Shown here in pieces: positions 5,042 through 21,336 of a DNA stretch of 64,000 nt (position 1 is its first letter; every line of letters starts with the position of its first letter). The translations under genes were made by a program, and so were the position numbers. The stretch is from Alphaproteobacteria bacterium. GTDB taxonomy: Bacteria; Pseudomonadota; Alphaproteobacteria; UBA8366; Aestuariispiraceae. Below the pieces are notes generated by a model that was given only the letters and a program-made list of their open reading frames with translations, did not search any database and had not been told where the DNA came from. The stretch covers positions 248,001 to 312,000 of the forward strand of contig JANSXE010000003.1 in NCBI GenBank assembly GCA_024743195.1. Reading direction: 5' to 3'.

Positions 5042-7339
5042 ATGGCCCATGCGCACGACTGTTCGCAGCACGCGGCCGACAGGCCGGCGCCGACCGGATC
5101 GGAGCGCCCGAAGGACGGCTATATCTGCCCGATGTGCCCGGACGTCTGGAGTCCCGTTCCCGCGGACTGCCCCTCCTGCGGCATGGCGCTGGAGCCGGCG
5201 CGGCCGCAGAAGGCTGAAACCAAGGTCGAGTACACCTGCCCGATGCACCCCGAGATCGTGCGGGACGCGCCCGGCGACTGTCCGATCTGCGGCATGGCGC
5301 TGGAGCCGCGCACGGTGACGGCGGAGACGCCGCCCAATCCGGAACTCGTCGATATGACGCGCCGGTTCTGGGGCGGGTTGGCGTTGACCATCCCGGTTTT
5401 CCTCCTGGCGATGGGGGAGTTCATTCCGCCGCTCGAGCAGGCCTTAGCCGGCGATTGGGCGCGCTGGGTGCAGCTCGTGCTCACGACCCCCATCATGTTC
5501 TGGGCGGGCTGGCCCTTCTTCGTGCGCGGCTGGAAGTCGATCCGCACGGTCAATCCGAACATGTTCACCCTGATCGCGATCGGCACGGGCGCGGCCTATC
5601 TGTTCAGCGTGGTGGCCGTGATCGCGCCGCAGATCTTCCCCGCCGGGTTCCTGACGGCGGGAGGTGCTGCGCCGCTCTATTTCGAGACCGCAGGCGTCAT
5701 CATCACCCTCATGCTGCTCGGCCAGGTGTTGGAGTTGCGGGCGCGCGAGCGCACCGGCGACGCCCTGAAGGCGCTGATCGATCTGGCGCCAAAGACGGCG
5801 ATCCGTCTGACAGACTGCGGACACGAGCGGGAGGTCGGCCTCGATCAGGTGCAGGTCGGCGACCGGCTGCGCGTCCGGCCGGGCGACAGCGCGCCCGTCG
5901 ACGGCGTCGTTCTCGAAGGGACGGCCGTACTCGACGAAAGCATGGTGACCGGCGAATCCAAGCCCGTCACGAAGCGCCCCGACGATCCCGTCATCGGCGG
6001 CACGATCGTGCAGGGCTCGACCGGGATCGTGATGCGCGCGGAGAAGGTGGGCGACGACACCATGCTCTCGCGCATCGTCGCCCTCGTCGCCGACGCGCAA
6101 AGGAGCCGTGCGCCGATCCAGTCCCTGGCGGACCGGGTGGCCGGGATTTTCGTGCCGACCGTGGTCGTGATCGCGATCGCGTCGTTCGCCGTTTGGGCGC
6201 TGGTCGGGCCGCCCCCCGCGCTTGCCTACGGGCTCGCCGCGGCGGTGACGGTGCTGATCATCGCCTGCCCCTGCGCGCTCGGGCTGGCGACGCCTATGTC
6301 GGTGATGACCGGCGTCGGGCGCGGCGCCCAGGCGGGCGTGCTGATCCGCAATGCGGAGGCGATCGAGCGCATCGCGAAGATCGACACGCTGGTGCTCGAC
6401 AAGACCGGCACCCTGACCGAGGGCAAGCCTGCCGTCGAGGCGATCGAGACGGCGGGCGGCGCCTCCTCCGACGAGTTGTTGCGCCGCGCCGCCGCGTTGG
6501 AGCGTGCGAGCGGCCATCCGCTGGCCCGCGCCTTCGTCGAGGCGGCGGAGGCGCGCGGGCTCTCGCTCCCCGCGACGCCGGACGATTACGAGCAGCATGA
6601 CGGCAAGGGGATCGTCGGCGCGGTGGACGGCGCGCGTCTTGCGATCGGCAATGCGGCGATGATGCGCGTCGCAGGCGCCGACCCCGCGCCGCTTGAGCAG
6701 ACGGCGGACGGCTGGCGCGACGAGGGGGCGACGGCGGTCTTCGTTGCGCTCGACGGCCGGCTGGCCGGGGTCGTGAAGATCGCCGATCCGATCAAGGAGA
6801 CCACGGCGGAGGCGATTGAGGGGCTGCACCGCGCCGGGGTGCGCCTCGTGATGTTGACCGGCGACAACGCCAAGACCGCGCAGGCCGTGGCGCGCCGCCT
6901 GGGCCTCGACGAAGTGGAGGCGGAGGTGATGCCCGAGGACAAGCACGCGGTCGTCGAGCGGCTCCAGAAAGAGGGGCGCCGCGTCGCCATGGCCGGCGAC
7001 GGCGTCAACGACGCCCCGGCGCTCGCGCGCGCCGATGTCGGCATCGCCATGGGCGCGGGCGCCGACGTCGCGATCGAGAGCGCGCACGTCACCCTGGTTA
7101 AAGGCGATCTGCGCGGCGTTCTGCGGGCCCGGACGCTGGGCCGCGCGGTGATGCGGAACATCCGGCAGAATCTGTTCTTCGCATTCATTTACAACGGGCT
7201 CGGGGTCCCGGTCGCGGCGGGCGTGCTCTATCCCGTGTTCGGATTGCTGTTGAGCCCGATGATCGCGGCCGCCGCCATGAGCCTGAGTTCCGTCTCGGTG
7301 ATCGGCAACGCGCTGCGGCTGCGTCGCCAGAAGTTGTAG
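5042..7339 (+). CDS. copA: Copper-translocating P1B-type ATPase
   Basis: This 765-residue inner-membrane Cu(I) efflux pump has family landmarks in order. Two N-terminal heavy-metal-binding modules of the CPM-x-P...CPxCGMALEP type replace the usual HMA (CxxC ferredoxin-like) domains; their cysteines are near residues 29/32/43/46 and 66/80/83. Then come paired membrane helices, the actuator motif VTGES (about 302-306), the transmembrane metal site CPC (409-411), the phosphorylation site DKTGT (D453), the SGHPLA loop and the hinge [10 protein letters not shown]. It follows a CueR-type promoter with AAGGAG nine bases before the ATG, and it heads an operon with cueR and a cytochrome c gene. Silver could also be a substrate. 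Confidence 0.95.
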
Positions 7340-7351
7340 GAGGGCCTGAGC

Positions 7352-7768
7352 ATGAACATCGGCGAAGCGGCCAAGCTGTCCGGCGTCCCGGCGAAGACGA
7401 TCCGCTATTACGACGAAATCGACCTGATCAAGCCGTCGGGCCGCACGGCGGGGGGCTACCGGGACTATGACGAACGTGCGGTGGAGAGCCTGCGCTTCGT
7501 GCGCCATGCGCGCGGCCTCGGCTTCTCGGTCGAGGACTGCCGCGCGCTGCTCTCCCTTTACCGCGACCGCAACCGGGCCAGCGCCGATGTGAAGTCCCTG
7601 ACGGCGAAGCATCTGGCGCGCATCGAAAGCAAGATCGCCGAACTGGAGAGCATGAAGCGCACGCTGCAGGACCTGACCGCCCGCTGCCAGGGCGACGACC
7701 GACCGGATTGCCCGATCCTCGACAACCTTGCCGGGCCGGAGCGGAGCAGGGCGGAGGCGCGGGGATGA
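7352..7768 (+). CDS. cueR: Cu(I)-responsive MerR-family regulator
   Basis: This 138-residue protein has an N-terminal MerR winged helix (MNIGEAAKLSGVPAKTIRYYDEI), a dimerisation coiled coil and a C-terminal metal loop. Two cysteines in RCQGDDRPDC have the C-x7-C spacing used by CueR to bind Cu(I) or Ag(I). It lies 12 bases after copA with a GGAGG site, and its stop overlaps the ATG of the cytochrome c gene (ATGA). As copA, cueR and the cytochrome share the 4971-5001 promoter, the regulator is probably autoregulated. Confidence 0.93.
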   Translation: MNIGEAAKLSGVPAKTIRYYDEIDLIKPSGRTAGGYRDYDERAVESLRFVRHARGLGFSVEDCRALLSLYRDRNRASADVKSLTAKHLARIESKIAELESMKRTLQDLTARCQGDDRPDCPILDNLAGPERSRAEARG

Positions 7769-8286
7769 ACGGCGGCGTCAGCCGAAACACGCTCGTCGGG
7801 TTGGCCGGGGCCGGCGCCGTCGCTGCGGGCCTCGCCGTCGGCCTCTACCTCTGGCAGGCGGAGAGCGCCCGGGCGCCGGACAGCCCGTCCGCCGATTGGC
7901 GCGGCGTGCGCATTTCGGCCGACGCGCCCGAACTCGCGGCCAAGGGCGCGCCGCTCTATCGGGACGCCTGCGCCGCCTGCCACGGCGCCGATCTGGAAGG
8001 CGCCGTGAACTGGCGCCAGCCTCTGGCCGACGGGACGCTGCCGCCGCCGCCGCACGACGAGACCGGCCACACCTGGCACCATCCGGACGGCTTCCTCTTC
8101 GCCTACACCAAGTTCGGCGGGCAGCCCTTCATGCCGGAAGGCCGGCGCAGCGCCATGCCGGCCTTCGCCGACGCCTACAGTGACGACGAGATCCTGGCGA
8201 TCCTGACCTACATCAAGAGCACCTGGCCGGAGGACGTTGCCGCCCGACAGGCGCGGATCACGGAGCAGGCGTCCGGTGGCGATTAG
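7765..8286 (+). CDS. Membrane-anchored c-type cytochrome in the copper operon
   Basis: The protein has 173 residues. An N-terminal hydrophobic helix (about 10-30) without an obvious cleavage site probably anchors it to the periplasmic face. One haem-binding CAACH motif is at 69-73, and a Met in PFMPEG or SAMPAF could be the sixth haem ligand. The remainder resembles COG2010-type monohaem cytochromes. A His-rich stretch (HDETGHTWHH) between the haem motif and the Met loop could bind metal. It overlaps cueR by four bases, so it is translationally coupled to the copper genes. A redox role in Cu(I)/Cu(II) handling is possible but is inference. Confidence 0.85.
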   Translation: MNGGVSRNTLVGLAGAGAVAAGLAVGLYLWQAESARAPDSPSADWRGVRISADAPELAAKGAPLYRDACAACHGADLEGAVNWRQPLADGTLPPPPHDETGHTWHHPDGFLFAYTKFGGQPFMPEGRRSAMPAFADAYSDDEILAILTYIKSTWPEDVAARQARITEQASGGD

Positions 8287-8335
8287 AGTGTGGCGCTCGA
8301 GGGCGTGCGCACCGGGGCCGCGGGGGTGAAGACAA

Positions 8336-9775
8336 TCATTCGGGCTCGCGTCCGTACTGGTCGTCCAGACGCTCGATGTCGTCCTCGCCGACATAGTCGC
8401 CGACCTGCACCTCGATCAGGTGGAGCGGCTCCGCGCCGCGATTCTCCAGCCGGTGCGTCTCGCCCACGGGGACGAAGGTGGATTGGTTCCGGCGCAGCAG
8501 TTCGACCCGCTCGCCGATGGTGACGTGCGCTTCGCCCTGCACGACGATCCAATGTTCCGAACGTTTGGCGTGCCGCTGCAGGGAGAGCCGACCGCCCGGC
8601 TTCACCACGATGCGCTTGACCCGGAAATCCGGCTCCTTGTCGATGTCCTCATAGGTTCCCCAGGGGCGATGCACCCGCCGATGCTCCGTCGCTTCCGGAC
8701 GGCCCGCCGCCTCCAGCTCGCCCACCAGACGCTTGAGCGCCTGCGCGCGATCCGCCGGCGCGACCAGCACGGCGTCCGGCGTCGCCGCCACCACCATGCC
8801 GTCGAGGCCGATCGCGGCCACCAGACCCGCCCCGTCGCTGGCGACGAAGCAGTTTCGGCTGTCGATCAGGCGCACGTCGCCGCGGACGACGTTGCCGTCG
8901 GCGTCCGCGGCGCCGGCCTCCCGCAGCGCGGAAAAGGCGCCGAGGTCGCTCCAGCCCATATCGACCGGGACCACCGCCGCGCGATCGGTGCGCTCCATCA
9001 CCGCGACGTCGATCGCCTCCGCCGGGCAGGCGGCGAACCGCGCCTCCGGCAGGCGCAGGAAGCCGAGGTCGGGCCGCGCCTCCGCCAAGGACTGCTGACA
9101 GGCCGCGAGGATCTCCGGCGCGTGGCGCTTCAGTTCGCGCAGCATCGCCTCGGCCTTGAAGACGAACATGCCGCTGTTCCATCCATAGCCGCCGGCCGCC
9201 AGGAAGCCTTCGGCCGCGGCGCGGTCCGGCTTCTCGACGAAGCGCTCGACGGCCGAGACTCCGTCGAGCTCGGGAAGGGCCGCGCCCGCCTTGATGTAGC
9301 CGTAGCCGGTCTCCGGCCGGTCGGGCTCGATCGCGAAGGTGACGAGCCACCCCTGCCGCGCCGCCGCCCGGGCGCGATCGAGCGCCGCGTGAAAGGCCGG
9401 CTCGTCGGCGATGCGGTGGTCGGAGGGCAGCACCGCGACGATGGCTTCCGGCGACTCCGCCGCCGCCTGCAACGCCGCCAGGGCGACGGCCGGCGCGGTG
9501 TTGCGCCCCACCGGCTCCAGCAGCAGCGCGGCCGGGGTGCAGCCGACCGCCTCCAACTGGTCGCGCACGATGAAGCGGTGCAGGTCGTTGGCGATCACCA
9601 GCGGCGGCGCGAAGCGGGCCGGGTTCCCCACCCGGCGCACCGTTTGCTGGAGCGGCGTCTCCGCGCCGTCCAGCGCCAGCAATTGCTTGGGATAGGCCTT
9701 GCGTGAGAGAGGCCAAAGGCGCGAGCCGGCGCCGCCGGAGAGGATGACGGGGTGGATTCTCGTCGAAGTCGCCAC
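8336..9775 (-). CDS. manC: Mannose-1-phosphate guanylyltransferase / mannose-6-phosphate isomerase
   Basis: This 479-residue bifunctional type II phosphomannose enzyme makes GDP-mannose (guanylyltransferase) and interconverts fructose-6-P and mannose-6-P (isomerase). The N-terminal nucleotidyltransferase motif ILSGGAGSRLWPLSRK and the FVEKPD sugar-phosphate motif are intact. The C-terminal cupin carries VKPGGRLSLQRHAKRSEHW, with the metal-binding His. Length and domain order match ManC/AlgA/CpsB. No other capsule or O-antigen gene is next to it, so it may serve a polysaccharide locus elsewhere. Confidence 0.94.
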   Translation of the reverse strand: MATSTRIHPVILSGGAGSRLWPLSRKAYPKQLLALDGAETPLQQTVRRVGNPARFAPPLVIANDLHRFIVRDQLEAVGCTPAALLLEPVGRNTAPAVALAALQAAAESPEAIVAVLPSDHRIADEPAFHAALDRARAAARQGWLVTFAIEPDRPETGYGYIKAGAALPELDGVSAVERFVEKPDRAAAEGFLAAGGYGWNSGMFVFKAEAMLRELKRHAPEILAACQQSLAEARPDLGFLRLPEARFAACPAEAIDVAVMERTDRAAVVPVDMGWSDLGAFSALREAGAADADGNVVRGDVRLIDSRNCFVASDGAGLVAAIGLDGMVVAATPDAVLVAPADRAQALKRLVGELEAAGRPEATEHRRVHRPWGTYEDIDKEPDFRVKRIVVKPGGRLSLQRHAKRSEHWIVVQGEAHVTIGERVELLRRNQSTFVPVGETHRLENRGAEPLHLIEVQVGDYVGEDDIERLDDQYGREPE

Positions 9776-9837
9776 GGCGCGGTCTCGGTCTGGTCAGCGA
9801 TGGACGCACCATAGGGGCCGCGGGCTGGCGCGAAAAG

Positions 9838-10794
9838 CTAGCGATCCTCCGAGGGCGCGCGGCCGAAGCGTTGGCGGTAGCTGCGCGAGAAGTGCGCGGC
9901 CGACGCGAAGCCGCAGGCGACCGCCACGTCCAGGACCGGCATTTCCGTCCCCTGCAAGAGCGTGCGCGCCCGGTCGAGCCGCAGGCGGCGGTAATAGGCG
10001 CCGGGGCTGGCGTCCAGCCAGCGACGGAACATGCGCTCCAGCTCCCGGGCGGAGACGCCGGCGGCCTCTGCGATCTCGGCGGTGGAAAGGGGCTCGTCCA
10101 GCGCGGCCTCCATGGCCTCCACGGCTCGGATCAGGCGCGGGTTCGCACTCTTCAGCCGCTGGCGCAGCGGCATGCGCTGGCTGTCCCCGCCTTCGCGGAT
10201 GCGCGCGTAGACGAAGAAATCGGCGCAGGCCGCCGCCAGCTCCTGCCCATGCTGCGTGCGGATCAGGTTCAGCATCAGGTCGAGCCCCGCCGTCGCGCCC
10301 GCCGAGGTGAAGCGGTCGCGGTCGACCACGAACAAATCCTGCCGCGCCTCGACCCGCGGATAGCGCTCGGCGAAGCTTTCGAGCTCCTGCCAATGGGTGG
10401 TGGCCCGATAGCCGTCGAGCAACCCGGCTTCCGCAAGGGCGAAGCTGCCGGTGTCGATCGCCCCCAGGCGCGCCCCGAAGGCGGCCGCCCGGCGCAGCCA
10501 GGCGAGCAGCGGACGGGTGATCGCCTCCTCGTGGTCGTAGCTCGCCGTGACCACGATCGCCGGCAAGGCGGGGGCGTCCGCTAGGCTGTAGTCGACGACG
10601 GAGGTCATGCCATTGACGGCCGTCACCGGCTCTCCATCCTGCGAGAGGAGACGCCATTCGTAGAGCGTCCGCCCGGCGAAGAGATTGGCGACGCGCAGCG
10701 GCTCGACGGCCGCGGCGAAGGCGAGCAGCGAGAACTTGGGCTGCAGCAGAAAGCCGATGCGCTGAATCTGACCGGATCGTTGTGGGGCGAACAT
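9838..10794 (-). CDS. GlxA-family AraC-type regulator, likely of carnitine catabolism
   Basis: This 318-residue protein has an N-terminal DJ-1/PfpI-like (class I glutaminase amidotransferase-like) sensor domain and a C-terminal pair of AraC helix-turn-helices (STAEIAEAAGVSARELERMF, then VLDVAVACGFASAAHFSRSY). This architecture is shared by CdhR and GbdR, the regulators of carnitine and betaine use in Pseudomonas. It is divergent from the BKACE and carnitine dehydrogenase genes, the arrangement seen for CdhR. The symbol is not assigned because the domain alone does not separate the family members. Confidence 0.85.
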   Translation of the reverse strand: MFAPQRSGQIQRIGFLLQPKFSLLAFAAAVEPLRVANLFAGRTLYEWRLLSQDGEPVTAVNGMTSVVDYSLADAPALPAIVVTASYDHEEAITRPLLAWLRRAAAFGARLGAIDTGSFALAEAGLLDGYRATTHWQELESFAERYPRVEARQDLFVVDRDRFTSAGATAGLDLMLNLIRTQHGQELAAACADFFVYARIREGGDSQRMPLRQRLKSANPRLIRAVEAMEAALDEPLSTAEIAEAAGVSARELERMFRRWLDASPGAYYRRLRLDRARTLLQGTEMPVLDVAVACGFASAAHFSRSYRQRFGRAPSEDR

Positions 10795-10943
10795 GACGGG
10801 CCTTCACGGCGTAGGTATGGGACCGACGGCGCGCCCGGTCCCCCCGCGGGCCGCATTCCTTCGATATGGGGATGCGCCGTCGCGTCGGAAGGGGGGCGGT
10901 GCGCGGCCGGCGCGGGTAAATGTGAAAATAGTCAAGAAATCGG

Positions 10944-10967
10944 CGGAAAATGTAAAATGCTTTTCCG
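10944..10967. promoter_or_regulatory. Inverted repeat, candidate operator in the carnitine divergent region
   Basis: CGGAAAA (10944-10950) and TTTTCCG (10961-10967) are exact inverted repeats around ten AT-rich bases, in an otherwise GC-rich 231-base gap between the regulator and the BKACE gene. Similar AAATGT(G)AAAAT stretches occur at about 10918 and 10947. It is a candidate binding site for the divergent AraC-type regulator; there is no direct proof. Confidence 0.45.
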
Positions 10968-11025
10968 ACACAAGCGTAGCCTCGTCTGCACGCCTGACCA
11001 ACCAGCCCGCCGAGGACGCCAGCCC

Positions 11026-11916
11026 ATGAACCGAGACGTCGTCATCACCTGCGCCGTGACCGGATCCGGCGCGACCCATGACAAGCACCCGGACCTGCCC
11101 AAGACGCCCGCCCAGATCGCCGACAGCGCGATCGAGGCCGCCAAGGCCGGCGCGGCCATCGTCCATATCCATGTGCGCGAGGACGACGGGACCCCGTGCC
11201 GCGATCCCGACAAGTTCGCGGAAGTGTGCGAGCGCATCCGGGCGAGCGGTGTGGACGTCGTCCTGAACCTGACCGCCGGCATGGGCGGGGATCTGACCCT
11301 TGGCCCGCCGGACGATCCGATGCGGATCGACGAGACGGCGACCGACATGGCCTCGGCGAGCGAGCGGCTCGAACATGTGCGCCGCGCGATGCCGGAAATC
11401 TGCACGCTCGATTGCGGCACCATGAATTTCGGCCATGGCGACTACGTCATGACCAATACGACGTCGATGCTCTTCGCCTTGGCGAAGGAGATTCAGGCGC
11501 TCGGCGTCAAGCCGGAGATCGAGGCCTTCGACACCGGCCATATCGTGCAGGCGCAGGAGCTGATCGACGCGGGGTTGATCGACGCTCCGCCGTTGTTCCA
11601 GCTCTGCCTCGGCATTCCCTACGGCGCGCCGGCGACCCCGACCGCGATGAAGGCGATGGCTGAGATGCTGCCGGCCGGCGCCAACTGGTCCGGGTTCGGC
11701 ATCAGCCGCCAGCAGATGCCGATGGTGGCGCAGGCGGCGCTGCTGGGCGGCAATGTGCGCGTCGGATTGGAGGACAATCTCTATCTCGAGCGCGGCGTCT
11801 TCGCCTCGAACGCGGATCTCGTCGCCCGGGCGCGCCAGATTCTGGAGTTGATGGGCGCGCGGGTCCTCTCCCCGGACGAGGCGCGGGCGAAGTTCGCCCT
11901 CGCCAAGCGCCACTGA
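11026..11916 (+). CDS. BKACE-family beta-keto acid cleavage enzyme, probably 3-dehydrocarnitine-cleaving
   Basis: This 296-residue TIM-barrel enzyme of the BKACE family (formerly DUF849) condenses a beta-keto acid with acetyl-CoA and releases acetoacetate or a CoA ester. The zinc-binding H47-I-H49 in VHIHVRE and the [11 protein letters not shown] and VRVGLEDN segments are family marks. Placed before carnitine 3-dehydrogenase and beside a CdhR-like regulator, it is most likely the enzyme that splits 3-dehydrocarnitine to glycine betaine and an acetoacetyl product. The ATG at 11026 starts the first barrel strand ([13 protein letters not shown]). Confidence 0.85.
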
Positions 11917-11948
11917 GCGACGCCGCTGATCGACAAGGATTGCCGGAC

Positions 11949-12923
11949 ATGTCGGAGATCAAGACCGTCGGCCTGATCGGGGGCGGCGTCATCGGCGCGG
12001 GCTGGGCGGCGCGCTGCCTGGCGCACGGGCTGGACGTCGTCGCCTGGGACCCCAATCCGGAGGGCGCCGCCGTGCTGCGCGCCAAGGTCGACAACGCCTG
12101 GCCGGCGCTTGAGACGCTGGGCCTCGCCGAGGGCGCGTCGCGCGACCGACTGCGCATCGCCGCCAGCCTGGAGGAGGCGGCGGACGCCGCCGACTTCGTC
12201 CAGGAATCGGCGCCGGAGCGTTTGGACCTCAAGATCGACGTCCACCGCCGGATTGACGCGGCCGCCGGGCCGGACACGCTGATCGCCAGCTCCACCTCCG
12301 GCCTGCTGCCGAGCGACTTCCAGGCGGAGTGCGCGCGCCCGGAGCGGGTGCTGGTCGGCCATCCCTTCAATCCTGTCTATCTGCTGCCGCTGGTCGAGGT
12401 GCTGGGCGGCAAGAAGACCGACCCGGCGGCGCTCGACCGGGCGGAGGCCTTCTACCGCGCGATCGGCATGCACCCCTTGCGCGTGCGCACGGAGGTGGAG
12501 GGCTTCCTCTCCGACCGGCTGCAGGAGGCGCTGTGGCGCGAGAATCTTCATCTGGTGGCCGAGGGCGCGGCGACGACCGGGGAGTTGGACGACGCCATCG
12601 TCTACGGCCCCGGGCTGCGCTGGGCCTTCATGGGAGTCAACAAGACCTTCGCGCTGGCCGGGGGCGAGCAGGGCATGCGCCATTTCATGGAGCAGTTCGG
12701 CCCCGCCCTGAAGTTGCCCTGGACCAAGCTGGAGGCGCCGGAGCTGACCGACGATTTGATCGACCGGATGGTCGAGGGGACCGAGGCGCAGCTCGGCGGG
12801 ACGACGATCCGCGAGATGGAGCGGCTGCGCGACGCGTGCCTGATCGCGATCATGCGCGCGCTGGCCCAGTACCGCCAGGGCGCCGGCCGGCTTCTGGCCG
12901 AGCGCGCCGAACAGGGAGAGTGA
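11949..12923 (+). CDS. L-carnitine 3-dehydrogenase
   Basis: This 324-residue member of the 3-hydroxyacyl-CoA dehydrogenase superfamily oxidises carnitine to 3-dehydrocarnitine with NAD+. The N-terminal Rossmann loop [13 protein letters not shown] and the catalytic segment [18 protein letters not shown], typical of carnitine dehydrogenases, are clear. The C-terminal domain has [11 protein letters not shown], which is also conserved in them. The ATG at 11949 has AAGGA nine bases upstream; a TTG nine bases earlier is less likely. It lies 32 bases after the BKACE gene and six before the acyl-CoA dehydrogenase. Confidence 0.9.
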
Positions 12924-12929
12924 CGCCCC

Positions 12930-14102
12930 ATGCATTTCGCGCAGACCGACGAACAGAAGATGGTGATCGAGACCGCGCGCCGGTTCGTTGAGGAGACGCT
13001 CTATCCGCACGAGCGGACGGTCGAGGAACGCGACGACGTGCCGGCGGAGGTGGCCGACGAGATCAAGCGCCGGTCGATCGAGCTCGGCCTCTACGCCGCC
13101 GCGATGCCGGTCGAGTTGGGCGGCGGCGGGCTCGATACGCTCTCAATGAGCATGCTGGATCGGGAGCTGGGCCGCGCCTCCTACGCGCTGCACTATCTGG
13201 TTTATCGCCCTTCCAACATCCTGCAGGCCTGCGTCGGCGAGCAGCGGGAGAAATACCTGCTGCCCTGCATCCGCGGCGAGAAGGTCGATTGCCTGGCGAT
13301 GACCGAGCCCGGCGCGGGCTCCGACGTGCGCGGCATGAAGTGCAAGGCCGAGCGCGACGGGGACGACTGGGTCATAAACGGGACCAAGCACTTCATCAGC
13401 CACGCCGACTGGGCCGATTTCGTGATCCTGATGGCGGCGACCGGCGAGGAGGAGGCCCCCCCGCAATCGGGCCGAGGACCGCGCAAGAAGATCACGACTT
13501 TCCTGGTCGACAAGGGGACGCCCGGATTCACGGTGCGGCCCGGCTACAAGAACGTCTCCATGCGCGGCTATCACAACTTTATCCTCGAATTCGACGATTG
13601 CCGCGTGCCGACCTCCCAGGTGTTGGGCGAAATCGACAAGGGCTTCGACGTCGCCAATGACTGGCTCGGCGCGACGCGGCTGCAGGTCGCGGCGACCTGT
13701 CTGGGGCGCTGCGACCGGGCGCTGGAGCTGTCGACGCGCTGGGCGGCGGAGCGCAAGCAGTTCGGCCAGCAGATCGGCAAGTTCCAGGGCGTCAGCTTCA
13801 AGCTCGCCGACATGGCGCTGAAGCTGAAGGCGGCCGAACTGCTGACCTACGAGGCCGCCTGGAAGCACGACCAGGGCGCGATGACCGACAGCGACGCGGC
13901 CATGGCGAAGCTGGCGGCGACCGAGGCGCTCGGCTTCATCGCGGACGAGGCGATCCAGATCCATGGCGGCATGGGGCTGATGAACGACCTGCCGCTGGAG
14001 ATGATCTGGCGCGATGCGCGGCTCGAGCGCATCTGGGAGGGCACGTCCGAGATCCAGCGCCACATCATCTCGCGCGGGCTCCTGCGCCCGCTCGGCGGCT
14101 GA
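12930..14102 (+). CDS. Acyl-CoA dehydrogenase, possibly acting on crotonobetainyl/gamma-butyrobetainyl-CoA
   Basis: This 390-residue FAD flavoprotein is of usual length. It shows MTEPGAGSDVRGMKC and FISHADWADF in the substrate and FAD region, RKQFGQQIGKFQGV, the segment EAIQIHGGMGLM, and the catalytic Glu at about residue 370 in RIWEGTSEIQRH. In this operon it could oxidise gamma-butyrobetainyl-CoA to crotonobetainyl-CoA, the reverse of CaiA in E. coli. GGGAGAG precedes the ATG, and the gap to carnitine dehydrogenase is six bases. The family is certain; the substrate is inferred from neighbours. Confidence 0.88.
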   Translation: MHFAQTDEQKMVIETARRFVEETLYPHERTVEERDDVPAEVADEIKRRSIELGLYAAAMPVELGGGGLDTLSMSMLDRELGRASYALHYLVYRPSNILQACVGEQREKYLLPCIRGEKVDCLAMTEPGAGSDVRGMKCKAERDGDDWVINGTKHFISHADWADFVILMAATGEEEAPPQSGRGPRKKITTFLVDKGTPGFTVRPGYKNVSMRGYHNFILEFDDCRVPTSQVLGEIDKGFDVANDWLGATRLQVAATCLGRCDRALELSTRWAAERKQFGQQIGKFQGVSFKLADMALKLKAAELLTYEAAWKHDQGAMTDSDAAMAKLAATEALGFIADEAIQIHGGMGLMNDLPLEMIWRDARLERIWEGTSEIQRHIISRGLLRPLGG

Positions 14103-14122
14103 AGCCGGGGGAGGGCGCGGTC

Positions 14123-16225
14123 ATGGCGCTCGACGAGGCGGGCGCGCCCGCTCTCACGGGCCTTTCGCGACTGCTGGCGCCGCGGCGAATCGCCTTCGTC
14201 GGCGGGCGCGAATGCGCGGTCGCAATCGAGCAATGCCGCCGGGCCGGCTTCGCAGGCGCGATCGAGGCGGTGCACCCGCGGCGCGAGGATCTGGCCGGCG
14301 TTCCTTGCGTGCGTTCGGTCGAGGACTTGTCGGCCCCGCCGGACGCCGTGTTCCTGGCCGTGCCGCCGGAGGCGACGGTGGGGACGGCCGCCCGGCTCTC
14401 CGCCATGGGCGCTGGCGGCGCCGTCTGCTACGCGGCCGGCTTCGCAGAGGCCGGACCGCACGGGGCGGCGTTGCAGCAAGCGCTTCTGGAGGCCGCCGGC
14501 GCCATGCCGGTGCTGGGGCCGAACTGCTACGGGCTGCTCAACTATCTCGACGGGGCGGCGCTCTGGCCCGACGTGCACGGCGGGGAGCGGGTCGCGCGCG
14601 GCGTCGGCCTGATCTCCCAATCCAGCAATCTCGCCATCAACCTGACCATGCAGCGTCGCGGCCTTCCGATCGCCTATGTGGCGACGGTCGGCAACGCGGC
14701 CCGCGTCGGCGTCGCCGACTTGATCGAAGCCTATGCGGCGGACCCGCGGGTCAGCGCCGTCGGCGTCTATCTGGAGAGCCTCGGCGGCGCGCCGCATCGG
14801 TTTGCCGCCGCGGTGCGGTCGGCGCAGGCGGCGGGCAAGCCGGTGGTCGCCTTCAAGACCGGCCGCTCCGAAGCGGGCGCCCGCGCGACGCTGAGCCACA
14901 CCTCCAGCCTGGCCGGCGGCGCGGCGGCCTTCGACGCCTTCCTCGACGGCCTCGACGTGCCGCAGGCCTTCTCCGTCCCGGCCTTCCTGGAGGCGTTGAA
15001 GCTGCTGCACGTCCTCGGTCCGCTGCCGGGTGCGCGGCTCGTCTCCATGAGCTGCTCCGGCGGGGAGGCGGCGCTTGTCGCCGACGCCGCGGCGCGGCTC
15101 GGCGTCGAGACGCCGTCGCTCGACGCCGAGGCGTCGAGGCTCCTTTCGGCCGTCCTGGGACCGAAGGTCGCGATCGACAACCCGCTCGACTACCACACCT
15201 ACATCTGGCTCGACGGGGAGGCGTGCCGCGCCTGCTATACGGCGGCGCTCGGTGCGCCGACGGCGGATGTCGGGATGTTGGTGCTCGACTACCCCAAGGA
15301 CGGGGCAGGCGACGCCACCGGCTGGGATTTGGCGACGGACGCCTTGATCGCCGCGGCGCAGGCGACCGGCCGGCCGGCGCTCGTCGCCGCGACCCTTCCG
15401 GAATGCCTGCCGGAGGGGCCGCGTGCGCGGTTGATGCAGGCCGGCGTCGCCCCGATGCAGGGGATCGAGGAGGCGCTGTTCGCCATCCGCGCCGCCGCGG
15501 TCGCCGGCCGTGCGCGGCCCGGCGTCGCGCCGTCGCCGGTCGCGCCGCCCGCGGTGCTGCGAGACGGACCGGCGCGCACGCTGGATGAATGGCGCGCGAA
15601 GAAGCGCCTCGCGGCCTGGGGGCTGAGCGCGCCGGAGGGCGCCTTGGTGACGGACGCGACCGAAGCCGCGGCGGCGGCCGAGGCGCTCGGCTACCCGGTC
15701 GCCGTGAAGATCGTCAGCGCCGCGTTGGCGCATAAGAGCGAGGTCGGCGGCGTGCGCCTGGGGCTCGGCGATGCCGACGCCGTCGTCGCCGCGGTCGACG
15801 CGCTCTCCGCGACGGGTGAGCGCTTCCTGGTCGAGCGCATGGTGACGGACGGCGTCGCGGAGTTGATCCTGGGCGTGACCCGCGACCCGCAGATCGGCCT
15901 GTGTGTGATGATCGGCGCCGGCGGGGTGCTGACGGAGCTGCTCGCGGATCGCGCCGTGCTGCCGCTGCCGACGGATGCGGCGGCGGTGGAGCGCGCGTTG
16001 GACGGCTTGCGCATCGCGCGCCTGCTGACCGGCTATCGCGGCCGGCCGCCGGCCGACCGGGCGGCGGCGGTCGCCGCGGCGCTGGCCGTCGCCGATTTCG
16101 CGACGGCCCACGCCGATCGGTTGCTGGAGTTGGACGTGAACCCGCTGATCGTGCGGCCCGAGGGGCTGGGCGCGATCGCCGCGGACGCGCTGATACGCTG
16201 GATCGAGGAAGGAGAGGACGGATGA
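14123..16225 (+). CDS. ADP-forming acyl-CoA ligase (acetate--CoA ligase family), fused alpha-beta type
   Basis: This 700-residue fusion has an N-terminal CoA-binding Rossmann domain (RIAFVGG...VLGPNCYGLLN), succinyl-CoA-ligase-like domains with GLISQSSNLA and the phosphohistidine candidate ATLSHTSSLAGG, and a C-terminal ATP-grasp domain (YPVAVKIVSAALAHKSEVGG...ELDVNPLIV). Such enzymes activate carboxylates with ATP, giving ADP and phosphate. Here it occupies the place of the AMP-forming ligase CaiC, so it may activate gamma-butyrobetaine, crotonobetaine or carnitine. It overlaps the hydratase gene by four bases (ATGA), indicating translational coupling. The substrate is inferred from context. 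Confidence 0.87.
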   Translation: MALDEAGAPALTGLSRLLAPRRIAFVGGRECAVAIEQCRRAGFAGAIEAVHPRREDLAGVPCVRSVEDLSAPPDAVFLAVPPEATVGTAARLSAMGAGGAVCYAAGFAEAGPHGAALQQALLEAAGAMPVLGPNCYGLLNYLDGAALWPDVHGGERVARGVGLISQSSNLAINLTMQRRGLPIAYVATVGNAARVGVADLIEAYAADPRVSAVGVYLESLGGAPHRFAAAVRSAQAAGKPVVAFKTGRSEAGARATLSHTSSLAGGAAAFDAFLDGLDVPQAFSVPAFLEALKLLHVLGPLPGARLVSMSCSGGEAALVADAAARLGVETPSLDAEASRLLSAVLGPKVAIDNPLDYHTYIWLDGEACRACYTAALGAPTADVGMLVLDYPKDGAGDATGWDLATDALIAAAQATGRPALVAATLPECLPEGPRARLMQAGVAPMQGIEEALFAIRAAAVAGRARPGVAPSPVAPPAVLRDGPARTLDEWRAKKRLAAWGLSAPEGALVTDATEAAAAAEALGYPVAVKIVSAALAHKSEVGGVRLGLGDADAVVAAVDALSATGERFLVERMVTDGVAELILGVTRDPQIGLCVMIGAGGVLTELLADRAVLPLPTDAAAVERALDGLRIARLLTGYRGRPPADRAAAVAAALAVADFATAHADRLLELDVNPLIVRPEGLGAIAADALIRWIEEGEDG

Positions 16226-17007
16226 GCGACAGCCTGACGGTCACGGAATCCGACGGCGTTCTGGAGGTCGTGGTCGACCGCCCGAAGGCGAACGCCATCG
16301 ACAACGCGACCAGCCGCGCGATGGGCGACCTCTTCGCGCGCTTCCGCGACGACCCGGACCTGCGGGTCGCGATTCTGACCGGAGGCGGGGAGAAATTCTT
16401 TTCCGCCGGGTGGGACCTGAAGGAGGCGGCGAGCGGAGAGGCCGAATACGAGGACGATTACGGCGTCGGCGGTTTCGGCGGGCTGCAGGAGCTGCCGGAT
16501 CTGAACAAGCCCGTGATCTGCGCCGTCAACGGCATGGCGGTCGGCGGCGGGTTCGAGATCGCGCTCGCCTGCGACATGCTGATCGCGGCGGATCACGCCC
16601 GCTTCGCCCTGCCGGAGATCAATGTGGGCGTGCTGGCGGACGCCGCGACCATCAAGCTGCCGAAGCGCATCCCCTACCACATCGCCATGGACATGCTGCT
16701 GACCGGCCGCTGGATGGAGGCGGGCGAGGCGAAGCAGTGGGGCCTCGTGAACGAGGTCGTCCCGGCCGACCAGCTTCTGCCGCGGGCGCGGGAGATCGCG
16801 CGGCTTCTGGCCGAGGGCCCGCCGCTCGTCTTCGCCGCGATCAAGGAGGTCGTGCGTGAGACCGCGGCGCTTCGGGTGCAGGAGTCCTTCGACCTGCTGA
16901 AAAGCCACCGGCTCCCGACCTATGTCGCCATGCTGGAAAGCGAGGATTCCAAGGAGGGTCCGCGCGCCTTCGCCGAGAAGCGCAAGCCGAATTGGCGCGG
17001 CCGCTGA
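16222..17007 (+). CDS. Enoyl-CoA hydratase/isomerase, CaiD-like (crotonobetainyl-CoA hydratase)
   Basis: The protein has 261 residues, the same length as E. coli CaiD. The crotonase oxyanion-hole segments are KFFSAGWDLKE and NGMAVGGGFEIALACD, and the acidic segment is FALPEINVGVLADA. The C terminus GPRAFAEKRKPNWRGR resembles the CaiD tail. It should interconvert crotonobetainyl-CoA and carnitinyl-CoA, supplying carnitine to the dehydrogenase upstream. Its ATG overlaps the ligase stop. It is the last gene of the operon; a palindromic repeat follows. Confidence 0.85.
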   Translation: MSDSLTVTESDGVLEVVVDRPKANAIDNATSRAMGDLFARFRDDPDLRVAILTGGGEKFFSAGWDLKEAASGEAEYEDDYGVGGFGGLQELPDLNKPVICAVNGMAVGGGFEIALACDMLIAADHARFALPEINVGVLADAATIKLPKRIPYHIAMDMLLTGRWMEAGEAKQWGLVNEVVPADQLLPRAREIARLLAEGPPLVFAAIKEVVRETAALRVQESFDLLKSHRLPTYVAMLESEDSKEGPRAFAEKRKPNWRGR

Positions 17008-17150: not shown

Positions 17151-18680
17151 TCAACCGCTTGGCAACAAGGCCTCCGGCAGGAAGTCCCTGAAAACGCCTG
17201 ATTGCACGAGGTCGGTGATGGCGGCGAGATCCGGGGCCCAGAACCTGTCGCGCTCATAGCCCGGAACGCGCGCGCGGATCAGCGTCATCGCGCGCTGCAG
17301 CGCCGGCGAGGTCTCGAGCGGCCGGTGAAAGTCTATCGCCTGGGCGGCGGCCAGCAGCTCCACCGCCGCGACGCCGGCGACGTTCTCCGCGATGTCGGTC
17401 AGCCGCCGCGCGGCGAAGGTCGCCATCGATACGTGATCCTCCTGATTGGCGGAGGTGGGCAGGCTGTCGACGCTCGCCGGGTGGGCCAGCGTCTTGTTCT
17501 CGCTGGCGAGCGCGGCCGCCGTCACCTGCGCGATCATGAAGCCGGAATTCACGCCGCCGTCCTCGACCAGGAAGGCGGGCAGGCCGCTCAGGCCCGGGTC
17601 CATCAGCAGCGCGATGCGCCGCTCGCTGAGCGCGCCGACCTCGCTCAGCGCGATCGCCAGCACGTCGGCGGAGAGCGCCACCGGCTCCGCATGGAAATTG
17701 CCGCCGGAGAGCACCTCGCCCGTCTCCGCGAAGACCAGCGGATTGTCGGAGACGGCCGCCGCCTCGGTCGCGAAGGTCCGCGCGGCGAAGCGGATATGGT
17801 CGAGGCAGGCGCCCATCACCTGCGGCTGACAGCGCAGGGAGTAGGGGTCCTGCACCCGGTCGCAGGTCAGATGGCTCTCCCGGATGCGGCTTCCCGCGAG
17901 CAGGGCGCGGTAGAGCGTCGCCATGTCGGCCTGACCGGCGTGGCCGCGGATCGCCTGGATGCGGGGGTCGAAGGGGGAGTCGGAGCCCTTGGCCGCATCG
18001 ACCGACAAGGCGCCGGCGACCGCGGCGGCGGCGAAGGCGTCTTCCGCCGCGAACAGGCCCTTGAGCGCCAGGGCGGTCGACACCTGGGTTCCGTTCAGCA
18101 GCGCGAGCCCCTCCTTCGGCCCGAGCGCCAGCGGCGCGAGCTCGGCCGCGCGCAGCCCCTCGGCGGCGTCCATTTCCCGCCCGCCGCGGCGCACCCGCCC
18201 GACGCCGATCAGCGCGCAGGCGAGATGCGCCAGCGGCGCCAAATCGCCCGACGCGCCGACCGAGCCCTTGGCCGGGATCACCGGATAGGTCTCGGTCTCG
18301 ATCAGACGGACCAGCGCCCCGATCGTCTCCCACGCCACGCCGGAGCAGCCGCGGGCCAGCGAGGCGGCTTTCAGGGCCAGCACCAGCCGCACCGTTTCGT
18401 CGTCCAGAGGCGCGCCCGTTCCGACGGCGTGACTTTTCACCAGATTGTTTTGCAAATCCAGCAGCTTGTCGCGCGGAATTGAGGTGCGGGCCAGGCGCCC
18501 GAACCCAGTGTTCACGCCATAGACCGTGCGGTCTTCCTCGACGATGGCGGCGATTGTGGCGCGCGCGGCGTCGACCGAGGGTTTGCAGGACGGGTCGAGC
18601 GCGACCGGCGCGCCGGCGGCGACGGCCCGCCAGTCGGCGAGCGTCAGGGCGGGCGTGAGGGGACGCGGGGCGTCAGGCAT
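17151..18680 (-). CDS. hutH: Histidine ammonia-lyase
   Basis: This 509-residue cytosolic enzyme opens histidine degradation by making urocanate and ammonia. The autocatalytic MIO prosthetic group forms from Ala-Ser-Gly at residues 143-145 in [14 protein letters not shown]. Other marks are YGVNTGFG near residue 54, the NGTQ segment of the active site, and [14 protein letters not shown]. Length is normal. It is the last gene of hutC-hutU-hutH on this strand, separated from hutU by a 200-base repeat-bearing gap, and probably controlled by HutC. Confidence 0.97.
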
Positions 18681-18715
18681 GGCTCTGGCTTCTCATAGGA
18701 TAGGGGGCGTGGAGC

Positions 18716-18835
18716 GAACCCTCTCCCCAGGGGAGAGGGCGGCCGCGGAAGCGGCCGGGTGAGGGGCGTAGGCGCCCAGGCGACGAGGCCTTCCGCTCCC
18801 TCACCGCAACCCCTCTCCCCGGGGGAAAGGGGCTC
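18716..18835. repeat. Composite palindromic element between hutU and hutH
   Basis: This contains CCCTCTCCCC (18719-18728) and its exact complement GGGGAGAGGG (18730-18739), then CGGCCGC-GGAA-GCGGCCG (18740-18757), a hairpin with a GGAA tetraloop. A second, inverted copy of the first unit lies at 18811-18832, and GGGTGAGGG (18757-18765) pairs with CCCTCACC (18798-18805). The whole is an imperfect long palindrome of the mobile extragenic type. It lies inside the hut transcript and could process or weaken it. Confidence 0.7.
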
Positions 18836-18880
18836 GGCGCGCCTAGCGACTGGATCAGCGAACCCGCCGCGCTCATCGCC

Positions 18881-20587
18881 TCACCCCTCCAGCATCGGCA
18901 GGTCGAGCCCCTGGCGGCGCGCGCAGTCGGCCGCCTCCTCATAGCCCGCGTCGGCGTGGCGCATGACGCCGGTCGCCGGGTCGTTCCACAGCACGCGGGC
19001 GAGGCGGCGGTCGGCGTCCTCCGTTCCGTCGCAGACGACGACCATGCCGCTGTGCTGGGAATAGCCCATGCCCACGCCGCCGCCATGATGCAGCGACACC
19101 CAGGTCGCGCCCGAGGCGGTGTTGAGCAGCGCGTTCAAGAGCGGCCAGTCGCTGACCGCGTCGGAGCCGTCGGCCATCGCCTCGGTCTCTCGGTTGGGGG
19201 AGGCGACGGAGCCGCTGTCCAGATGGTCGCGGCCGATCACCACGGGCGCGCTGAGCGCGCCCGAGCGCACCATCTCGTTGAAGGCGAGGCCGAGCCGGTG
19301 GCGCTGGCCCAGCCCGACCCAGCAGATGCGCGCCGGCAGCCCCTGGAAGGCGATCCGCTCGCGCGCCATGTCGAGCCAGGTGTGGAGGTGCGGATCGTCC
19401 GGGATCAGCGCCTTCACCTTGGCGTCGGTCCGGTAGATGTCCTCCGGATCGCCGGAGAGCGCGGCCCAACGGAACGGCCCCACCCCGCGGCAGAACAGCG
19501 GGCGGATGTAGGCCGGCACGAAGCCGGGGAAGGCGAAGGCGTTCTCCACCCCCTCGTCGAGGGCCATCTGGCGGATGTTGTTGCCGTAGTCGAAGGTCGG
19601 GACGCCCATCTCCTGAAAGGCCAGCATGGCGCGCACATGGGTCGCCATCGAGGCCTTGGCGGCGGCGACGACCGCGTCCGGGTCGCGTTCGCGCGCATGG
19701 TCCCAGTCGTCCAGCGTCCAGCCGACCGGCAGATAGCCGTTCAACGGATCGTGGGCGGACGTCTGGTCGGTGACCAGGTCGGGCCGAACGCCGCGCCGCA
19801 CCAGCTCGGGCAGGACCTCGGCCGCATTGCCGAGCAGGCCGACCGAGACCGCCTCGCGCTTGGCCGTCGCCGCCTCGATGATCGCCAGCGCGTCGTCCAG
19901 CGTGTCGGCCCGGCGGTCGAGATAGCGGGTCTTCAGGCGCATCTCGATCCGGCTCGGCCGGCATTCAACGGCGAGCACGCTGGCCCCCGCCATGGTCCCG
20001 GCCAGCGGCTGCGCGCCGCCCATGCCGCCCAAGCCCGCGGTCAGGATCCACTTGCCGGCGAGGTCGCCGCCATAGTGCCTCCGCCCGGCTTCCTTGAAGG
20101 TCTCGAAAGTGCCCTGGACGATGCCCTGGCTGCCGATATAGATCCAACTGCCGGCGGTCATCTGGCCGTACATCATCAGGCCCTTGGCGTCCAAGTCGTT
20201 GAAATGCGACCAGTCGGCCCAGTGCGGCACGAGGTTGGAGTTGGCGATGAGAACCCGCGGCGCGTCCTTGTGGGTGGGGAAGACGCCGACCGGCTTGCCG
20301 CTCTGCACCAGCAGGGTCTGGTCGTCCTCCAGCCGCTCCAGCACCTCGACGATCCGGTCGTAGCAGGTCCAGTTGCGCGCGGCCCGGCCGATGCCGCCAT
20401 AGACGACGAGTTCCTCCGGCGCCTCGGCCACCTCCGCGTCGAGATTGTTCATCAGCATGCGCAGGGGCGCCTCGGTCAGCCAGCTCTTGCAGCGCAGCTC
20501 GGACCCGCGCGGCGCGGCGATCCGGCGGCTGTTGTCGAGGCGGTCGGCCATGGGGGCGGACGGGCGGGCGGCGTCGGCGAGGGGCAT
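18881..20587 (-). CDS. hutU: Urocanate hydratase
   Basis: This 568-residue NAD-dependent enzyme turns urocanate into imidazolone propionate, the second step of histidine degradation. The NAD-binding [19 protein letters not shown] segment and the C-R-G-V-G-P-F-R-W motif containing the conserved cysteine are intact, as are [14 protein letters not shown] and the C-terminal [15 protein letters not shown]. The ATG at 20587 is chosen for its GAGGAG site seven bases upstream; a TTG at 20602 would overlap the hutC stop. It starts 11 bases after hutC. Confidence 0.97.
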
Positions 20588-20598
20588 CGGATTTCTCC

Positions 20599-21336
20599 TC
20601 AAAGCGGCGGGACGGTCTCGGCGGCGGGGCGGCCGGCCGTCAGGCGATAGCGTGCGGCCGGGTAGGTGAGGCGCGCGAGGCTCGCCACCTGCGTCCCGAC
20701 CCAGGTGCGACGGTCGACGCCGAGGCAGGGCGCGCCGGCGTCGATGCGCAGCAGGTCGGCGGTCGCCGCGTCCGCCGGCGCGGCTTCGACCGCGTGCTCG
20801 ACGGCGGTGGCGGGCGCAACGCGCGTCAGATAAGCGTTCGGGGTCTCGAGCGTGAAGTCGACCGTGGGATAGTCGGGCGCCACGGCCGGGTTCACCAGGC
20901 GGTCCTCCAACTGGACCGGGACCCCGTCCTGCAGATGGACCAGACGGCTGTGGAAGACGGCGGCGCCGGCCGCCAGCCCCATCCGCACCGCCTGCCCGGG
21001 GGCGAGCGACGCCCTTGCGACGGCGAGGATGTCGACGGTGTGGCGGCGGCCGCGCGCGGCGATTTCGTCCGCGATGTTGCGCAATTCCAACAGATCGCTG
21101 GCGGGGGTCGGGTCGGCCACGAAGCTGCCGGCGCCCTGCACCCGGGTGATGGCGCCTTCGTCCGCCAGTTCGCGCAGCGCCCGGTTGACCGTCATGCGGC
21201 TGGCGCCGGTTTCCTTCACCAGAGCGTGCTCTGACGGAATCTGTGCGCCCGGAGGGTAGGTTCCGGCCGCGATGGCCTCCTGCAGGCGGTGTTTCACCTG
21301 CAGATAGAGGGGCCGATGGGATGCGCTGTCAGGCAT
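20599..21336 (-). CDS. hutC: Histidine utilisation repressor (GntR/HutC family)
   Basis: This 245-residue protein has an N-terminal GntR winged helix ([23 protein letters not shown]) and a C-terminal UTRA effector domain that binds urocanate in characterised HutC proteins. The ATG at 21336 has GGAGAG five bases upstream; a GTG two codons earlier is an alternative. It is the first gene of the hutC-hutU-hutH unit. A perfect TTGTATATACAA site lies 20 bases upstream of its start, so it very likely represses its own operon. Confidence 0.95.

Follow-up and report, generated by a model that had tools for sequence, protein, structure and literature searches.

A probable gamma-butyrobetaine/L-carnitine catabolic operon of the Sinorhizobium meliloti type with an ADP-forming-type acyl-CoA ligase and no thioesterase gene of its own

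Six genes at positions 9838-17007 of the window (the whole 64,000-nucleotide stretch analysed here, G000:C20:248001-312000, where G000 is the genome of the window) raise two questions: what an ATP-grasp acyl-CoA ligase does beside a carnitine dehydrogenase, and how CoA is released again where the operon encodes no thioesterase. A sequence-only reading had described the genes as one divergon and had assigned them to a pathway from gamma-butyrobetaine (GBB) through carnitine to betaine. All six ORFs are indeed in place, and each matches the family proposed for it, as judged from the ORF list and from Pfam and NCBIfam profiles. The locus is very probably an aerobic GBB/L-carnitine catabolic operon of the S. 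meliloti type, with CoA released by a thioesterase that is coded elsewhere in the genome. Its features are as follows.

9838..10794, minus strand: AraC-family regulator, GbdR-like, with a DJ-1/PfpI-like N-terminal domain (NF052371 GbdR, 362.7 bits; Pfam HTH_18 and DJ-1_PfpI)
10795..11025, no strand: divergent intergenic region of 231 bases between the regulator and BKACE genes (from the sequence)
11026..11916, plus strand: BKACE (Pfam BKACE, 332.5 bits), which adjoins the carnitine dehydrogenase gene in sister clusters
11949..12923, plus strand: L-carnitine dehydrogenase (CDH), 324 residues, without the fused thioesterase domain of other lineages (NF005471)
12930..14102, plus strand: acyl-CoA dehydrogenase (ACAD; Pfam Acyl-CoA_dh N, M and 1)
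14123..16225, plus strand: ADP-forming-type acyl-CoA ligase, 700 residues (CoA_binding_2, Succ_CoA_lig, ATP-grasp_5)
16222..17007, plus strand: CaiD-like crotonobetainyl-CoA hydratase (ECH), 261 residues (best NCBIfam model NF002936)

CDH exceeds its NCBIfam equivalog cut-off (NF005471, 481.7 versus 414 bits, scored from 11946, one codon 5' of the ATG at 11949). The regulator lies below the GbdR cut-off (NF052371, 362.7 versus 480 bits), no NCBIfam BKACE model reaches its cut-off for the window protein (best NF052387, 257.3 versus 382), and ACAD falls below the CaiA cut-off. The hydratase is below the CaiD equivalog cut-off although this is its best-scoring family (NF002936, 342.5 versus 500 bits); the S. 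meliloti-like hydratase and ACAD are likewise under the NCBIfam CaiD and CaiA cut-offs. Spacing within the operon had been given as gaps of 4-35 bases, which is nearly right: the plus-strand genes are separated by 32 (BKACE-CDH), 6 and 20 bases, but the last pair, ligase and hydratase, overlaps by 4 bases (ATGA, 16222-16225). A CDH start at the upstream TTG (11940) would narrow the BKACE-CDH gap to 23 bases. The 231-base region between regulator and BKACE presumably serves as a shared promoter/operator.

Read from their ORFs, the genes flanking the operon on both sides look unrelated to it. The 5' flank contains copper ATPase, MerR-type regulator, cytochrome and mannose-1-phosphate guanylyltransferase-like genes, and histidine-utilisation-like genes (HutH/HutU by reading) follow directly and convergently at 17151-20602. 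No transporter was noticed among the neighbouring ORFs on reading the ORF list.

The arrangement is far beyond chance, as further classes and phyla have this set of genes too. An orthologue scan in named genomes yielded at least 586 relatives, the best 80 of which were kept as named ligase loci. Among these 80, ACAD lies nearby in 76, ECH in 75, CDH in 47, BKACE in 46 and a thioesterase of the cluster family in 41, and the proposed GBB/carnitine-to-betaine pathway is thereby well supported. The subset of 57 loci with long flanks behaves similarly (ACAD 56, ECH 55, BKACE 35, CDH 35, thioesterase 29). Several of the missing neighbours fall at contig ends, and genes that the caller, trained on the window, missed in the lower-GC loci L036, L037 and L040 were not scored as absences. 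Of the loci with full flanks, L091 shows no ACAD or ECH at the thresholds used, and L111 shows no ECH. ACAD, ligase and hydratase occur without detected BKACE or CDH at 17 of the 57 long-flank loci (14 without a thioesterase, three with one), as would be expected of a GBB-to-carnitine module. The loci among the best 80 span Alpha-, Beta- and Gammaproteobacteria and include three Actinobacteria.

Nearer to the window, 19 of 43 genomes of its taxonomic order have the ligase (E 1e-100 or better), and these include all 14 genomes of its family. In stretches of at most 20 kb, gene calling places BKACE, CDH, ACAD, ligase and hydratase together in the window and in eight other family genomes (G001, G004, G005, G007-G010 and G012). 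G013 and G006 have ACAD, ligase and hydratase, with BKACE and CDH not at that site; G013 carries BKACE and a CDH-thioesterase fusion elsewhere in its genome. G002 and G003 are poorly gene-called, and the G011 contig is too short for gene order to be judged.

Sister clusters show a number of variations on this theme. In L051 (Curvivirga aplysinae), positions 6125-12837 hold the regulator, a CDH-thioesterase fusion, ACAD, ligase and hydratase, and BKACE was not found in that stretch by tblastn. A short-chain dehydrogenase gene lies between CDH and ACAD in L078 (7939-8691), L105 (6152-6943), L122 (8044-8796) and L053 (7916-8686), and between BKACE and CDH in L060 (5874-6641); perhaps it encodes a dehydrogenase for D-carnitine or a second dehydrogenase. 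In L053 and L060 a cluster thioesterase is present as well. In L105, a copper amine oxidase gene (8044-9984) separates ACAD from the ligase. The Candidatus Thioglobus cluster L080 has a methyltransferase-domain gene between ligase and hydratase (12056-12730), and the ligase-hydratase gaps of L093 and L115 are similar in size to the gap occupied by this gene.

The comparison with S. meliloti defines the cluster type. Of 394 genomes sampled from the larger family to which G043 belongs, G384 and G300 match a 4 kb fragment of pSymB from S. meliloti 1021 at 96% identity. Both genomes carry the regulator facing BKACE, a CDH-thioesterase fusion, ACAD, ligase and hydratase, and the same order is found in G416, which is 75% identical to the pSymB piece. 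The fused S. meliloti-like protein scores 947.3 bits against a cut-off of 592 for NF005716, carnitine 3-dehydrogenase. The window agrees with these genomes in its regulator-facing gene order and in all five enzyme families; its ADP-forming-type ligase is about 47% identical to the S. meliloti-like counterpart. The window differs in having no thioesterase domain fused to or beside CDH, and its cluster is followed by the histidine-utilisation-like genes, whereas Opp/Nik-type ABC transporter genes follow the S. meliloti-like one. S. meliloti reportedly converts GBB to glycine betaine in seven steps with five enzymes, which equals the size of the five-gene set seen here. Among individual S. meliloti genes, SM2011_c01638 is reported to oxidise carnitine and to turn betainyl-CoA into glycine betaine (PMC12482172, 2025, which cites Bazire 2019 for this), and SMc01639 is given as a putative acyl-CoA dehydrogenase (PMC12542648). 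A 2007 review describes strain HK4, which is close to Rhizobium meliloti, as forming L-carnitine from GBB by a route that resembles the degradation of fatty acids, and a table of that review files it under gamma-butyrobetaine hydroxylase (PMC2131755). The gene set is thus largely ordinary, being found in many bacteria including close relatives of S. meliloti. The earlier opinion that an ATP-grasp ligase is unusual in this role is not supported, since the cluster contains this type of ligase in S. meliloti-like genomes and in Alpha-, Beta- and Gammaproteobacteria alike.

Two other known systems overlap with the window in part. The E. coli cai operon shares a CaiD-like hydratase and analogous intermediates; there CaiC is an AMP-forming ligase and CaiB a CoA transferase, whereas counterparts of both are absent from the window operon. 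In the CdhR-regulated carnitine catabolism of Pseudomonas aeruginosa, an AraC-family regulator lies divergent from the operon that turns carnitine into glycine betaine (PMC5806209), and CDH and BKACE are enzymes of this pathway (PMC12482172). The window has the divergent AraC-family regulator, CDH and BKACE in common with that system, and adds the ACAD-ligase-hydratase block.

These resemblances suggest the following course of reactions. The ligase, presumably a gamma-butyrobetaine--CoA ligase, would be phosphorylated at H259 by ATP and would proceed through the acyl phosphate of GBB to GBB-CoA and ADP. ACAD, as the presumed gamma-butyrobetainyl-CoA dehydrogenase, would form crotonobetainyl-CoA, which the hydratase would convert to carnitinyl-CoA. 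Carnitine freed from carnitinyl-CoA would be oxidised by CDH to 3-dehydrocarnitine, and BKACE, the presumed 3-dehydrocarnitine cleavage enzyme, would use acetyl-CoA to produce betainyl-CoA and acetoacetate. Hydrolysis of betainyl-CoA would then give glycine betaine. Both CoA-release steps would fall to a thioesterase coded outside the operon, for which G000:C7:114847-115296 is the best candidate, and the regulator would answer a carnitine-type signal. A hydroxylase route to carnitine may coexist, given five dioxygenase homologues in the window's genome: the gamma-butyrobetaine dioxygenase model TIGR02409 has five matches there, none over the cut-off (best 366.9 versus 414.75). These paralogues lie at G000:C19:78595-79674, C7:103618-104667, C15:484720-485814, C10:127204-128265 and C20:88835-89881.

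The ligase chain has the architecture of the ACD superfamily, with CoA_binding_2, Succ_CoA_lig and ATP-grasp_5 all above the Pfam gathering score. Its best PDB profile match is DddX (7cm9, E 6.4e-106), followed by a 4-hydroxybutyrate--CoA ligase (E 1.4e-104). Across 102 ligase rows (the window included, and a few genomes present twice), the residues E218, H259, Y357, W362, K493, K529, H537 and N673 do not vary. For Y357 this is in part an effect of selection, as one of the two patterns used in the scan for named loci spans residues 353-359; H259, W362 and W401 are outside both patterns. Residue 360 (Y360 in the window) is F or Y in 100 of the 102 rows, and position 401 is W in 100, F in one and Y in one. 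H259, the presumed phospho-His, is also kept in both other ACD paralogues found in the genome, which are without Y357 and W362 and have no BKACE or CDH nearby. At the paralogue locus L041, an ECH-like gene (35%) and a partial ACAD-like gene (37%) lie several kb off, so weak ECH/ACAD neighbours are by themselves not specific. The assignment of the ligase to the activating step gains support from the rarity of an AMP-forming alternative: with an AMP-forming ligase motif and ORFs of at least 400 codons, one of 102 related stretches (L073, the motif's sole positive control) contains an AMP-forming ligase.

DddX, an ATP-dependent DMSP lyase, is an ACD enzyme that acts on an onium acid. Its His292 is believed to carry the phosphate, docking and mutants implicate Trp391 and Phe435 in binding the sulfonium, and Glu432 probably serves as the base in the expulsion of DMS (PMC8163506). 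The window ligase belongs to the same family by sequence and has the conserved His, with aromatic residues that appear to lie at or near the onium-binding positions. In an alignment read by eye, Phe435 superimposes onto W401 and Trp391 onto H358, beside Y357 and near W362. The Y357/Y360/W362 loop and W401 may therefore form an aromatic pocket for the trimethylammonium group, probably without lyase activity. Glu432 aligns, again by eye, with A398, a position that is A in 25, D in 18, L in 13, P in 13 and G in nine of the 102 rows, with other residues in the rest; the base is not conserved. The neighbours differ as well, DddX being accompanied by DddB/DddC and the window ligase by a beta-oxidation-like block, and on these two grounds a DMSP lyase was rejected. 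No title or abstract opening found in a literature search names an ADP-forming GBB ligase. The apparent placement of the Y357/W362 loop and W401 near the sulfonium-holding positions of DddX and a cluster without a thioesterase are the new details of this locus.

CoA must be released from betainyl-CoA, and from carnitinyl-CoA as well if GBB is the substrate. The hydrolysis of betainyl-CoA needs a thioesterase-type enzyme as much as the release of carnitine does, a point absent from the sequence-only reading. That reading had found neither a thioesterase nor a CaiB-type transferase to free carnitine. The observation is correct for the operon, and an HMM built from 46 cluster thioesterase segments detects no thioesterase in the whole window (E limit 1e-3), but it does not extend to sister clusters, many of which have a thioesterase fused to or beside the dehydrogenases, nor to the genome itself. 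Two thioesterases are present at eight of the 80 loci (L045, L049, L054, L059, L071, L076, L083 and L108). In six of these, one follows CDH and one precedes ACAD; L071 has one fused and one before ACAD, and L083 has one at the contig end and one before ACAD. The ligase is kept in all eight. Its role as a mere replacement for the thioesterase was rejected, as clusters with one or two thioesterases retain the ligase.

The unlinked homologue in the window's genome (G000:C7:114847-115296) is a 163-residue 4HBT_2 protein (L131 9809-10300) encoded next to mlaA/mlaC, a diguanylate cyclase and a chloride channel. Two cluster thioesterases match it at 47% and 42% identity, and among NCBIfam models the thioesterase half of carnitine 3-dehydrogenase fits it best (E 3.1e-33). 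In a thioesterase tree made by a quick method, it groups with seven other solo copies of its family and away from those in clusters, at an SH-aLRT of 92 that falls short of the 95 mark. Three weaker homologues are found in the same genome.

The absence of a cluster thioesterase is shared by nine of the 35 CDH loci with long flanks, and we therefore treat it as a variant or lineage trait of the S. meliloti-type cluster. On a FastTree ligase tree, 20 of 64 CDH-bearing loci, in a list drawn by hand that includes a few duplicate genomes and cut contigs, are without a thioesterase; this distribution needs at least eight changes, four of them forced by well-supported branches. Nine genomes in which CDH is present and a cluster thioesterase is missing were examined, and each encodes a homologue at another site (E of 1.8e-15 or lower); the one in G437 lies inside a 485-residue frame that may be another fusion. 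A second homologue is also present in two of three controls with a cluster thioesterase (G445 and G446; none in G444), so these copies show availability rather than role. In G008-G012 the best homologue is just 30-35% identical. The long-flank CDH loci that have no thioesterase are L075, L078, L079, L080, L096, L105, L115, L116 and L122. A Pfam scan for a non-orthologous hydrolase among gap genes from six of them (L078, L079 apart from 7619-8371, L080, L105, L116 and L122) found no thioesterase. The genes in the scanned gaps encode short-chain dehydrogenases, a copper amine oxidase, a C92 peptidase-like protein, a GNAT acetyltransferase, a methyltransferase and one 171-residue protein without a Pfam match.

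ACD enzymes are reversible, and the ligase could itself release CoA, converting carnitinyl-CoA and/or betainyl-CoA with ADP and Pi to the free acid and ATP. A thioesterase would then be unneeded, and activation would be ATP-neutral and CoA-transferase-like. We consider this rather unlikely. The lack of a thioesterase in the window, its absence from nine of 35 and 20 of 64 loci with at least eight changes, and the low identity of the homologues in G008-G012 are all consistent with it. Against it, the genome has its 47% stand-alone thioesterase and three weaker homologues, the stand-alone protein best matches the thioesterase half of carnitine 3-dehydrogenase, homologues occur in nine of nine genomes (bearing in mind that this speaks to availability), and clusters with one or two thioesterases retain the ligase. 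The more general proposal, that in lineages without a cluster thioesterase a single reversible ATP-grasp ligase with an aromatic cage for trimethylammonium spends ATP on GBB and regains it from carnitinyl-CoA and/or betainyl-CoA, seems to us improbable to a like degree. Either the solo thioesterase or a reversible ligase would release CoA, and the solo thioesterase needs less assumption; release by this separately coded thioesterase is the reading that we prefer.

Somewhat less likely again is a CaiC-like ligase that activates carnitine or crotonobetaine, with the block serving as an overflow or electron-acceptor route that runs mainly from carnitine to crotonobetainyl-CoA or GBB. The hydratase does resemble CaiD, and sequence gives no direction. 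Yet the adjoining CDH and BKACE oxidise carnitine, no CaiB-type CoA transferase is found among the six genes with Pfam and NCBIfam, the S. meliloti pathway is said to run from GBB to betaine, and HK4 is said to take GBB to L-carnitine, its listing under hydroxylase in the review table aside.

Plasmid records provide 157 matches to the ligase orthologue (E limit 1e-80), 131 of them from Rhizobium, and of the 30 records listed, 15 annotate it as 'acetate--CoA ligase family protein' and 15 have no annotation. An ordinary acetate/propionate-CoA ligase, in the operon by chance, would suit that label and is nonetheless very improbable, as the ligase is kept beside ACAD and ECH across classes, reaches neither of the corresponding models (NF045494, 196.4 versus 1200 bits; TIGR02717, 185 versus 567 bits) and has an aromatic loop that is absent from the genome's two other ACDs. 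In those of the listed plasmid records that have an annotation the orthologues bear an acetate name, yet their context points to an onium-acid ligase, and the NPLDYHT(Y/F)xW-type loop could help annotators tell the family apart from enzymes for acetate or DMSP. Lineages whose cluster has no thioesterase offer a testable case for ATP-recovering CoA release; if it were true, one reversible ATP-grasp enzyme would do the work that CaiB/CaiC and two thioesterases do elsewhere.
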